Below are positions 27,684 through 34,437 of a stretch of DNA of 40,032 nucleotides, piece after piece; position 1 is the stretch's first letter; every line of letters begins with the position of its first letter. Both the position numbers and the translations under genes were made by a program. The DNA is from an uncultured Ruminococcus sp. (GTDB taxonomy: Bacteria > Bacillota > Clostridia > Oscillospirales > Acutalibacteraceae), in NCBI GenBank assembly GCA_902802795.1, contig CADCNI010000011.1, positions 1 through 40,032 on the forward strand, written 5' to 3'. The notes under the pieces were generated by a model. That model was given only the letters and a program-made list of their open reading frames with translations. It searched no databases and was not told the origin of the DNA.

Positions 27684-27712
27684 ATTATACCCCTTATTCT
27701 TCCGATTGTCAA
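27684..27712 (-). promoter_or_regulatory. Consensus promoter of alaS
   Basis: Minus strand: TTGACA (27707-27712), 17 nt, TATAAT (27684-27689). It is a perfect sigma-A match, back to back with the promoter at 27733. Confidence 0.9.
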
Positions 27713-27732
27713 GAACTTTTATCAGTAATCTC

Positions 27733-27761
27733 TTGACAAATCTCACGGGATGTCATATAAT
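27733..27761 (+). promoter_or_regulatory. Consensus promoter of the structured leader RNA
   Basis: TTGACA (27733-27738), 17 nt, TATAAT (27756-27761), a perfect sigma-A match. The expected start is near 27768, with about 230 nt of leader before the next start codon. Confidence 0.9.
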
Positions 27762-27767
27762 GATACT

Positions 27768-27890
27768 GTACAATTGAATACAAGCCGATGTATTGACATT
27801 TCGCTTTTTAAGGACGTTTCTCTCACGGGAGAAGTGTACCCTTATGAGAGAAACGTCGGTGCATCGGCTTTTTTTGCTGCACCGACGCCG
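27768..27890 (+). ncRNA. Structured leader or small RNA with competing hairpins
   Basis: Four pairings are visible. (a) Early hairpin AATACA (27777-27782) / TGTATT (27789-27794) with loop AGCCGA. (b) Terminator-closing helix AAGCCGATG (27782-27790) / CATCGGCTT (27862-27870), its 3' arm running straight into a T-run (27869-27875). (c) A perfect 13-bp stem inside it, GACGTTTCTCTCA (27813-27825) / TGAGAGAAACGTC (27845-27857). (d) A late hairpin CGTCGGTGCA (27854-27863) / TGCACCGACG (27878-27887). (a) and (b) use the same bases, as do (b) and (d), so the RNA must choose. I recognise no known riboswitch class. It may be an attenuator for the gene at 27998 or a stand-alone RNA of about 108 nt. Confidence 0.65.
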
Positions 27891-27997
27891 GAACAGAGGC
27901 ACACCGGGGGAAGCATGCCATGACCCGTTGCCAAACGGCGAGCGTGCCAACGGCGTACAGGTTCCATTCCTATTCATTTATCAGGAGGTACAGCCAT

Positions 27998-28555
27998 ATG
28001 TCTTACAGACCCACCATCTCGGTGTATATCCGCGGGGAAATCGCGGATATCAGCTATTACCGCAACTGGAGTGACCGCGCGCTGTTTATGGAAGCCGCCG
28101 CCATCATGGCGGTATTCGGTCACTGTCAGACCGTTTCGGAATACCGCCGGAGGAAGGCGGTCCTTTCGGGCGCGGAGGCGCTGCCGTCCGATGACAAAGA
28201 AGTGCTGCTGTCTTTGGAGCGCTGGTCGGAATTTCCCGTGCTGGTCGATCTGACCGGGAAAACCGTCTATGTCAACTGCGGCGCGCTGTCCCCACGCGAA
28301 CTCAGTCGCATTCCCACCGTCGGACAGAACGGTCTGTGCCGCCTTTACCGCGGCGGCATGGCATCCCGGCAGCGCGACCCCTTCCGCAGCGGCTATGTCT
28401 GCCAGACCACCGACTTTCACTCGCTGCTGCGCGATTTCAGAATCCCGTTTGACGACATACCGCTCGACAGCCTGCGGGACGTCTTCGCCACCGACCCAAA
28501 ACTGCTGTCGTACCTGTCAAACGACACCCGCGGCAGTCTCAAAAAACTCGCGTAA
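27998..28555 (+). CDS. Conserved-looking hypothetical protein, 185 residues
   Basis: It begins MSYRPTISVYIRGEIADISYY. AGGAGG lies 9-10 nt before ATG 27998; an in-frame ATG at 27920 has no such site. It is soluble by eye, with no signal peptide or membrane helix. Features include an N-terminal beta/alpha segment, a Lys/Arg-rich middle (TVSEYRRRKAVLSG), LVDLTGKTVYVNCGALSPRELSRIP, and a C-terminal stretch (LRDFRIPFDDIPLDSLRDVFATDPKLLSYLS). No catalytic motif or family is recognised. It is the only gene after the structured leader RNA, which suggests regulated expression. Confidence 0.7.
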   Translation: MSYRPTISVYIRGEIADISYYRNWSDRALFMEAAAIMAVFGHCQTVSEYRRRKAVLSGAEALPSDDKEVLLSLERWSEFPVLVDLTGKTVYVNCGALSPRELSRIPTVGQNGLCRLYRGGMASRQRDPFRSGYVCQTTDFHSLLRDFRIPFDDIPLDSLRDVFATDPKLLSYLSNDTRGSLKKLA

Positions 28556-31859: not shown

Positions 31860-31908
31860 GAAAGCAAGCAGTCCCGTGGATTGGCGGGAATGTGTCACAT
31901 CTTAGGAA

Positions 31909-31999
31909 CTATGCAGAAATAATTGATACATTTCACTTTCTGAAACACGCAAGCATACTGTATTTTTAAGCAGAAAATGACTGATTAAATTCTGCATAG
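31909..31999 (+). promoter_or_regulatory. Leader inverted repeat upstream of the GH13 gene
   Basis: CTATGCAGAA (31909-31918) can pair with TTCTGCATAG (31990-31999), which is followed by A-rich sequence. A second GCAGAA copy (31970-31975) can pair with the same TTCTGC, giving a short local hairpin instead. The two pairings exclude each other. No known riboswitch is recognised. Confidence 0.35.
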
Positions 32000-32072
32000 A
32001 AAAAAACAACAGCCCGATACCATCATAGAAAACCTGCATTTCTTTGCACCCAAGGAAAGGACTGATTCGATT

Positions 32073-33857
32073 ATGAAATTTGAAGCCGTCTATCACATTT
32101 GCAGCGACAACTATTGCTACATGAACAACAACAGCGAGCTGATTGTCAACCTCAAAACCGGCTATGATGTGGAGGAAGTCTACATCCACTACGGCGATCC
32201 GTTTTCCACTGGCATCCTCGGCGCGCAGCAAAACTGGGCGGGCATCCGTCTGCCTGTTCCCTTTAAAAAACGCCTCGCCCATCAGCTCTGGTGGACGACC
32301 ACCATTGTGCCGCAATACAAGCGCTGCCGCTACTTCTTTGAACTGGTCAGCCGCGCGGAATACGGCGGCGAGCGCGAGACATGGTATTACTTTGAGGACG
32401 GCGTGCTCAGTGAGGAGCAGTGGCACCTTGAGGGCAAAATGCTCCAGTGCTTCACTTTTCCGTGGATGAATCCCTCCGATATCAACCGCACGCCCGACTG
32501 GGTCAACAGCACGGTCTGGTATCAGATTTTTCCCGAACGCTTCTGTAACGGGAATCCCGACATCAATCCCCCCGACACCCAGCCGTGGAGCGACGACACC
32601 ACCCCTGTTACCAACGAGCAGTTTTATGGCGGCGACCTCCAGGGCATTATCAACCGACTGGATTATCTGGCCGACCTCGGCGTGACGGGCCTTTACATGA
32701 CGCCGATTTTTGAGTCTCCCTCCACCCACAAATACGACACCACCGACTACATGAAGATCGACCCCCATTTCGGTGACGAGGAAACCCTCCGCACGCTGGT
32801 GGAAACGGCTCACAGCAAGGGCATCCGCGTGATGCTCGACGGCGTGTTCAACCACTGCGGTTTCTGGTTCGCCCCGTGGCAGGATGTGCGCGAAAGAGGA
32901 CCGGAATCGCCCTATTACAACTGGTTCATGATTAACCAGTGGCCGTTTGACCGCGACCGCCGGGACACCCGCGACGGCAGGTTTTATTCCTTCGGCTTTT
33001 TTGCCGGCATGCCCAAGCTCAACACCAACAATCCCGAAGTGGTGGACTACCTTGTCGGCGTGGTGGAACATATGGCAAAGGATTTCGGCATTGACGGCAT
33101 CCGCCTTGACGTTGCCAACGAAGTGTCCCACCAATTCTGCAAGACCCTGCGCTATGCCCTCAAAAAGATCAATCCCGATTTCTACATTCTCGGTGAGATC
33201 TGGCACAATGCCATGCCGTGGCTGCGGGGCGACGAATTTGACTCGGTCATGAATTACCCCCTCTCCCACAGCATCACCGACTTCTGGATCGACCGCAGCC
33301 GCAAAAAGCGCGATTTTGAATACATGGTCAACCGCTGCTACACCACCTATATGCAGCACACCAACGACGTTCTGTTTAATCTGCTCGATTCGCACGATAC
33401 CGACCGCGTCTTCCGCCGCAACCACTGCAATATAGACGTGGTCTATCAGCAGCTCGCGGTGCTCTTTACCATGCCGGGAAGCCCCTGCATCTACTATGGC
33501 ACCGAAATCGGCATGGACGGCGGCGGCGACCCCGATTGCCGACGCTGCATGCCGTGGAGCAAGATTGACGACGGGCAGTTCACCGACCGCATCAATATGC
33601 TCAAACGCCTGATCTGGCTGCGCAAAAACGAACCCCTCTTCCGCAGCAGAAACTTCCATTTCCCCAACGAGATCAGCAATGACCGCGTCATCGAATACAT
33701 CAAGCTCGACAACGACAACCATCAGCTCAAGGTCATCATCAACTGCTCCGACGAAACCGTGGAAACGCCTTATATGGACGGCAAGGAAATCTTCTTTGCC
33801 AACCTCTACGACAACGGCTGGCTCCAGCCCAACGGCGTGGTCGCGGTGAGATGGTAA
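32073..33857 (+). CDS. GH13 neopullulanase/cyclomaltodextrinase-type alpha-glucanase
   Basis: 594 residues with no signal peptide, hence intracellular. An N-terminal CBM34-like beta domain (about 1-130) is followed by the GH13 barrel. The conserved regions are DGVFNHCG (256-263), GIRLDVANE with nucleophile Asp346, ILGEIWHN with acid/base Glu375, and LLDSHDTDR with Asp442. The CBM34-GH13_20 layout is that of neopullulanase, maltogenic amylase and cyclomaltodextrinase, which split imported maltodextrins, pullulan pieces or cyclodextrins. AAAGGA lies about 12 nt before ATG 32073. It is a single-gene unit with a long structured leader. No maltose transporter or LacI regulator is nearby. Confidence 0.93.
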   Translation: MKFEAVYHICSDNYCYMNNNSELIVNLKTGYDVEEVYIHYGDPFSTGILGAQQNWAGIRLPVPFKKRLAHQLWWTTTIVPQYKRCRYFFELVSRAEYGGERETWYYFEDGVLSEEQWHLEGKMLQCFTFPWMNPSDINRTPDWVNSTVWYQIFPERFCNGNPDINPPDTQPWSDDTTPVTNEQFYGGDLQGIINRLDYLADLGVTGLYMTPIFESPSTHKYDTTDYMKIDPHFGDEETLRTLVETAHSKGIRVMLDGVFNHCGFWFAPWQDVRERGPESPYYNWFMINQWPFDRDRRDTRDGRFYSFGFFAGMPKLNTNNPEVVDYLVGVVEHMAKDFGIDGIRLDVANEVSHQFCKTLRYALKKINPDFYILGEIWHNAMPWLRGDEFDSVMNYPLSHSITDFWIDRSRKKRDFEYMVNRCYTTYMQHTNDVLFNLLDSHDTDRVFRRNHCNIDVVYQQLAVLFTMPGSPCIYYGTEIGMDGGGDPDCRRCMPWSKIDDGQFTDRINMLKRLIWLRKNEPLFRSRNFHFPNEISNDRVIEYIKLDNDNHQLKVIINCSDETVETPYMDGKEIFFANLYDNGWLQPNGVVAVRW

Positions 33858-33892
33858 AGACTTCATCCGCATGGAGGCGGGTAAATAAATGA

Positions 33893-33978: not shown

Positions 33979-34437
33979 TCAATTCCAGAAAGCCTCCCAG
34001 TAGTCAAACAGATATTGCTTTGTCTGCTGCCACAATGCCGCTTCTTCCTCTGTAAAATCGTTGGGCTCTTTTTCCAGATACAAATGACACCCGTCACAGA
34101 TCGTGTCGAGAATGCGGTACCATTCCCGCATTGCTTCGTCATCCTCATCCTCATCCTCATCTTCCGGGATGATACGGACGGCGGTACTTCCGCCACCGCT
34201 CAGCTTTGAGGGAATCCCCATGCAGTTCGCGCGAAAATAGGCCATTCTGGGCAGAAGGAACATCGCCATAGCGTTGTCCAGATTCCAGATGTCATTATAG
34301 GAAAATCCCCATTCCCGCACAAACGCGTCATGCTCTTTGTGCTGCGTGTGTTCGCTGTCATCGTCTCTGAAAAGCACCCTGTCATCTTCCTCTAACGCTT
34401 TCAGAACAAATTTCGCTTCCTCTTGCCAACGCTCCAT
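33979..34437 (-). CDS. Unknown acidic protein with WNLDN motif
   Basis: 152 residues, soluble and strongly acidic. YNDIWNLDNAMAMFLLPRMAYFR (about 46-68) and WYRILDTICDGCHLYLE (about 105-121) resemble the W-[DN]-L-D-x-x-[LM]-A ... I-L-D-x-[IM] pattern of small hypothetical proteins common in phages and mobile regions of Firmicutes. Between them is an EDEDEDEDDE run encoded by a hexanucleotide repeat. AAAGGTGG lies 8 nt before ATG 34437. It follows the histidine kinase gene by 26 nt, so it could be the last gene of that operon. The function is unknown. Confidence 0.65.
   Translation of the reverse strand: MERWQEEAKFVLKALEEDDRVLFRDDDSEHTQHKEHDAFVREWGFSYNDIWNLDNAMAMFLLPRMAYFRANCMGIPSKLSGGGSTAVRIIPEDEDEDEDDEAMREWYRILDTICDGCHLYLEKEPNDFTEEEAALWQQTKQYLFDYWEAFWN

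Follow-up and report, generated by a model that had tools for sequence, protein, structure and literature searches.

Based on our analysis of a 40,032-nucleotide (nt) stretch of DNA from an uncultured Ruminococcus sp. (contig CADCNI010000011.1; the whole stretch is called the window below), we propose that the leader of an orphan gene on its plus strand is probably a real genetic switch, and one that is unlisted in the databases searched. The promoter matches the consensus at 12 of 12 positions (TTGACA-17-TATAAT, 27733-27761, plus strand) and places the start of the RNA near 27768. Sequence and fold together put an intrinsic terminator between this promoter and the start codon of the gene (27998-28555, plus strand; 185 amino acids). 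Comparison with related genomes indicates that the 3' arm of the terminator, A' (27854-27870, plus), has two conserved partners that exclude each other. One is the 5' arm A (27782-27798, plus), with which A' builds the outer stem of the terminator. The other is a second complementary strand, A'' (27878-27887, plus), which lies past the U tract and pairs with the first ten bases of A' in a late hairpin, P3 (27854-27863 with 27878-27887, plus). This comparison supports strong conservation, the terminator hairpin, its apical core and the alternative pairing of A' in P3; termination, read-through, the signal and the locking of the read-through state are steps that we infer. All the elements that an earlier note on this DNA had named (the perfect consensus promoter, hairpins, terminator, a 13-base-pair (bp) stem and the late hairpin) are present in the sequence.

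Four genomes carry the gene, all of them drafts of 99 to 420 contigs and two of them titled metagenome-assembled: the window's own (G000), two relatives in the genus (G017, uncultured Ruminococcus sp. RUG10756, stretch L006; G003, uncultured Clostridia bacterium, stretch L007) and a member of another genus in the same family (G076, stretch L005). Of 18 genus genomes 3 had the gene, as did 2 of 300 family genomes (the window's own included) and, in a second family draw, 2 of 393 (G003 and G076); scans of the order (394 genomes) and class (371 genomes) returned the window's own gene and no further relative. These draws overlap. No relative was found in phage DNA, phage protein, plasmid protein or two viral-contig scans. 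Relatives that keep the gene and lose the helices, which the earlier note regarded as damaging to its reading, did not turn up: the leader accompanies all four gene copies found, the diverged G076 among them. A covariance model built from the three genus copies, which it scores at 117-121 bits, picks up the leader of G076 without having been given it (38 bits; E = 4e-6 in 215 kb, 4e-5 genome-wide). The full leader was not found in any of the 15 genus genomes that lack the gene, where the model matches at most 52 nt at E of at least 0.02; these genomes are 76-98% complete, so absence is not certain for any single one. Within G076's own genus the model matches G076 and gives a single 29-nt match (E = 0.3) across three other genomes. 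The weak matches of 29-53 nt in both genera were taken as ordinary short hairpins. The plus-strand unit, from promoter to orphan gene, sits in the window between a minus-strand alaS with its own T-box leader and a minus-strand GGDEF/PAS gene. G008 has the alaS T-box directly beside the GGDEF gene and lacks the unit, which implies that gain or loss involved leader and gene jointly. The G076 unit lies at a different genomic place from the genus copies.

The 109-nt RNA ending at 27876 folds at -44.4 kcal/mol, compared with -21.8 +/- 3.3 for 200 shuffles, none of which was as stable (z = -6.8). Its minimum-energy fold makes the terminator one long interrupted hairpin with inner helices and a 16-bp outer stem, in which AAGCCGATG (27782-27790) is complementary to CATCGGCTT (27862-27870). 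Termination is expected at a U7 tract (27869-27875, plus), which is U6 in the other three copies and whose first two residues are also counted in the stem. The apical core (27809-27846, plus) consists of an inner stem, a CUC/GAG hairpin and, on the 3' side, GUGUACCCUU; GGAGAAGTGTACCCTTATG (27828-27846, plus) is part of it. The G076 counterpart keeps the 17-bp spacer in its promoter (TTGATA-17-TACTAT, L005 1186-1214), and its hairpin, which is followed by a U6 tract, is again matched in stability by 0 of 200 shuffles (z = -5.3). G076 and G000 share 54 of the 81 letters aligned across the hairpin and differ at the other 27, and 14 positions are gapped. When the 31 pairs of outer stem and core are compared between G003 and G076, 16 are the same, 4 are changed on one side, 5 are compensatory, 2 are broken and 4 are gapped. 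The core recurs letter for letter in G076 as GGAG-NN-GUGUACCCUU-N-UG, and the apical hairpin followed by GUGUACCCUU is likewise kept there. The terminator hairpin proposed earlier therefore stands.

How specific is the core to this leader? Among 398 family genomes, a draw outside which G017 falls, exact copies of GGAGNNGTGTACCCTTNTG occur in G000, G003 and G076. With at most one mismatch the long core occurs at 23 places in 19 of the 398 (3 exact, 20 with one mismatch); a reversed-pattern control gave 12 matches by a hand count of the listing. The 20 one-mismatch places, together with five exact matches in viral contigs, were set aside: inspected by eye they lack the fold, and the leader model finds nothing there. 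The short core GTGTACCCTT is present three times in the window's own genome, and the other two sites, judged from their sequence alone, are unlike the leader hairpin. Within the genus, the hairpin without its U tract (27781-27868) has changed at 0 of 88 positions in G017 and 1 of 88 in G003. The gene has changed at 5.0% and 7.4% of its positions, respectively (9.2% and 13.5% at third codon positions). Identity is 86% and 84% in the untranslated region that follows the hairpin (14-16% change, gaps counted), and 77% and 78% in the gene's 3' flank. Tested against the gene rate, the hairpin gives binomial P values of 0.011 (G017) and 0.009 (G003), two values that are not independent. A coding cause of the conservation was considered and rejected, because G000 and G003, whose U tracts differ in length, are out of frame with each other, and because G076 has no reading frame in common with them.

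The arms of P3 are CGTCGGTGCA/TGCACCGACG in G000, CGTCGGTGCA/TGCACCGATG in G003 and TTTCAAAGCA/TGTTTTGAAA in G076. All ten pairs are present in each of the three, at the same ten positions of A', and in the comparison with G076 five pairs are compensatory, one is changed on one side, four are unchanged and none is broken. Full pairing at the fixed G076 positions, allowing the other arm to shift by up to 5 nt, arose in 6 of 200,000 shuffles of the 25 nt past the U tract; when the pairing is sought anywhere in these 25 nt, 0 of 2000 shuffles do as well as G000. P3 scores 9.5-10, and none of 134 terminator-like sites in the sequences analysed reaches 9.5 (best, 9.0). These control sites were loosely defined, as five or more T after a 45-nt stretch folding at -10 kcal/mol or better, and the leader's own terminator, which is not among the six best control sites shown, evidently failed this local criterion. 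A, A' and A'' have changed jointly in G076 at 2 of 10 positions relative to G000 and at 3 of 10 relative to G003, a pattern that is hard to explain unless both pairings matter. A'' resembles A at 9 of 10 positions in G076 and at 6 of 10 in G000. The mutual exclusion of P3 and A:A' is conserved, although the 3' arm of P3 lies past the U tract. The claim of a late hairpin that competes for the 3' arm of the terminator therefore stands.

How might such a leader operate? We consider it about an even call that the unit acts in cis as a transcription attenuator, with the terminated RNA as its default output and with A' captured in the read-through message. RNA polymerase would start at the strong promoter. 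By default A would pair with A', transcription would stop at the U tract and a very stable hairpin RNA of about 108 nt would be left. Some condition would block the closure of A:A', probably binding at the apical core (the hairpin plus GUGUACCCUU) or, alternatively, a factor or ribosome occupying arm A, and the polymerase would then read on into the orphan gene. In the read-through message A'' would capture A' as P3, so that the message would not fold back into the long hairpin and arm A would stay unpaired. A fuller version is more tentative, and we think it rather unlikely in its entirety: a new class of RNA-gene unit in which A' alternates between the terminator and a post-terminator capture hairpin, strand exchange behind the passing polymerase makes read-through irreversible, and a new core of about 40 nt recognises and binds the orphan protein or a ligand. 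Were the attenuator reading true, its layout would be one in which the terminator's conserved rival is placed in part past the termination site and acts on the read-through RNA, not on termination itself. RNA core and protein family, both of no recognised kind, would each offer a handle on the other. The unit is compact and complete in itself, running from the promoter to the end of the gene. The terminated RNA of about 108 nt that was first put forward as an alternative to an attenuator may well hold alongside it.

Several observations weigh against the attenuator that we favour. Effectively only two independent versions of the leader sequence are known. The best 95-nt stretches of the gene match the hairpin plus U tract in conservation, with 1 (G017) and 2 (G003) differences, which renders the conservation within the genus suggestive only. 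Without a fixed register, P3 is equalled by 47 of 2000 (G003) and 49 of 2000 (G076) shuffles, about 2.4%, and the register is for this reason an important part of the P3 evidence. The 3' arm of P3 is transcribed after the U tract, so that P3 is unable to prevent termination; it is no normal antiterminator, and its effect is confined to RNA already read through. In addition, even once P3 has been transcribed the terminator fold is favoured in all four copies, by 4.8 (G017), 5.8 (G000), 8.7 (G076) and 12.9 (G003) kcal/mol, and since forcing P3 has this cost its formation would depend on kinetic assistance or on a bound factor. The fold model leaves the core and the 5' hairpin formed when P3 is forced; the core is thus present in both folds, and how binding there picks a fold is not evident. 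The conventional candidate for an antiterminator is that 5' hairpin, P0 (AATACA/TGTATT, 27777-27794, plus; arms 27777-27782 and 27789-27794 around the loop AGCCGA), which would sequester the terminator's 5' arm and does form in the fold model. It is weak, with 99 of 500 (G000) and 69 of 500 (G076) shuffles as stable, and stands in a different register in G076. Of the riboswitch or attenuator architecture suggested in the earlier note, the terminator and the competing late hairpin have therefore survived; for a normal antiterminator P0 is a weak candidate, and a ligand or aptamer has found no support. Compensatory changes bear out the terminator and P3, and leave without support both P0 and the perfect 13-bp stem (27813-27825 with 27845-27857, plus). 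That stem, which exists in the sequence as described, is an alternative to the upper part of the terminator hairpin and the best fold of a 94-nt intermediate in the genus copies. It was seen only in these three near-identical copies and not in G076.

The strongest rival holds that the terminated RNA of about 108 nt, made in excess, binds and restrains the orphan protein, with the terminator setting the ratio of RNA to message. The RNA antitoxins of AbiF/RCd22 and ToxIN restrain their proteins in this way. We regard such an arrangement here as doubtful, though by no means negligible. RNA and gene are found together and patchily, G008 has the flanking T-box and GGDEF gene together without the unit, and the core with GUGUACCCUU is conserved beyond the needs of a terminator. 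The order of parts is also that of the C. difficile AbiF locus, as far as the relevant sections of its description go (PMC12373285). On the other hand, the leader RNA has no repeats, the protein belongs to no PADLOC or Pfam toxin family, RF03085, the AbiF RNA family, is missing from the Rfam matches found at E of at most 10, and P3 would have no obvious role. An isoelectric point of 8.7 in G000 and 4.7 in G076 would be odd for a conserved RNA binder, and none of ten Pfam-scanned neighbours, on which PADLOC was not run, bears a recognised defence name. A gene with a TIR domain (PF13676; L005 1-969, minus) flanks the G076 unit and could count for or against this rival.

Quite improbable, in our judgement, is that a constitutive terminator or small regulatory RNA stands before the gene by chance, the gene being expressed by leakage and P3 arising as a by-product of the similarity between the arms. 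The energetic dominance of the terminator fold and the lack of any recognised ligand-binding domain fit such an arrangement. It accounts poorly for the linkage of leader and gene in two genera with no full leader match where the gene is missing, and for the way P3 tracks the changes of A' in G076; moreover, a free small RNA need not stay beside this gene. We attach a very low probability to a translation-coupled attenuator, in which a ribosome stalled on a two-codon frame within arm A would hold A open. The frame is AUG-UAU-UGA at 27788-27796 in G000, and a start codon, one codon and a stop occupy the same place in G003 and, as AUG-CUU-UGA, in G076; the principle is on record for vmlR in the parts of that study concerned with its leader (PMC9226507). 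No Shine-Dalgarno sequence was seen before the frame in G000, G003 or G076, the AUG and UGA lie in a stem that is conserved anyway, and two versions of the leader cannot separate these causes.

The orphan protein is 94% identical in G017, 92% in G003 and 35% in G076. The four proteins match no Pfam family (E at most 10) and no PADLOC family (E at most 1), the toxins of type III toxin-antitoxin systems included. In PHROGs, single members weakly touch a family without function (best E = 0.003) and two more (0.1 and 0.15), and in NCBIfam a single member touches EboA (E = 0.13). The gene is accordingly as unrecognised as had been stated, and the unit of leader and gene is accounted for by nothing in Rfam, Pfam, PHROGs, PADLOC or NCBIfam. 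A sequence search of the PDB returned only 3bgw (E = 0.11). An AlphaFold2 model based on the three near-identical sequences has a mean predicted local distance difference test score of 60 and a predicted template modelling score of 0.57, and Foldseek found nothing for it in the PDB or BFVD at E of at most 0.001; for these reasons no fold is claimed.

Between P3 and the gene the message can form a second hairpin (GCATGC/GCGTGC with an inner CCGTT/AACGG; 27913-27947, plus, by folding), which is present in all four copies, though imperfectly, since G017 and G003 each have a mismatch at one outer pair. A ribosome binding site, AGGAGG, follows at 27983-27988 (plus). The alaS T-box (RF00230; 27438-27660, minus; E = 6e-13) scores 61.7 bits, below the Rfam cut-off of 93, and is missed by a search at cut-off for that reason; its promoter (27712-27684), divergent from that of the leader, also matches the consensus at 12 of 12 positions. 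In G017 a DDE transposase gene (PF13808, PF01609; L006 2-736, minus) lies directly upstream of the leader, and the shared sequence begins about 10 bases before the -35 box. A 1090-codon frame (L006 1969-5241, minus) stands there between the orphan gene and what appears by eye to be the end of the GGDEF gene; G000 and G003 have no counterpart in that place. The other flank of the G076 unit is a glycerophosphodiester phosphodiesterase gene (PF03009; L005 2262-2978, plus). Elsewhere in the window, minus-strand frames of 655 (31902-33872) and 151 (33979-34437) amino acids, without a Pfam match at E = 1e-5, adjoin a two-component system and an ABC/FtsX transporter.

Rfam returned no match in the window at gathering cut-off and, up to E = 10, only the T-box on the other strand and mir-1256 on the leader strand (28 bits, E = 0.001, cut-off 70), the latter ascribed to the general resemblance among long hairpins. 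The G076 leader gave mir-2063, RAGATH-18, snoR117 and RsaE, all far below cut-off, and RF03085 was absent up to E = 10 from the matches of both window and G076 leader. The failure to match the leader to a known class was hence confirmed by the covariance search. No tandem array was found in 27700-28000 and no direct repeat of at least 10 nt in 27762-27900. A literature search found no description of this leader RNA, which does not prove its absence in print.

How does the leader compare with known systems? A T-box leader lies next door, before alaS on the minus strand; the leader strand gives nothing beyond the sub-cut-off mir-1256. In the portions of the sources that concern us, a survey of premature terminators sets out the general principle of attenuators (PMC2965389), and the vmlR leader of B. 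subtilis has the classical layout with an upstream antiterminator and a three-codon frame through which a stalled ribosome can act on attenuation (PMC9226507). The present leader shares with them the promoter, the leader, the terminator before the gene and the alternative pairing of a terminator arm. It differs from what is described there in that the conserved competitor pairs with the 3' arm from a strand beyond the U tract, in that no sensor is recognised, and, relative to vmlR, in that no good candidate for an upstream antiterminator is present. The C. difficile AbiF/RCd22 locus, in the sections of its report that bear on this point (PMC12373285), has a SigA-type promoter, an RNA of 88-132 nt and a Rho-independent terminator. 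It yields mostly the short RNA, with some transcripts running on into the gene, spans 168 nt from start site to ATG (about 230 nt here), and its RNA neutralises its protein. With this locus and with type III toxin-antitoxin systems, so far as these sections describe them, our unit has in common a short terminated RNA, a strong promoter and a gene reached by read-through; it departs from them in having no RF03085 match, no repeats and a protein that matches none of the listed toxin families.
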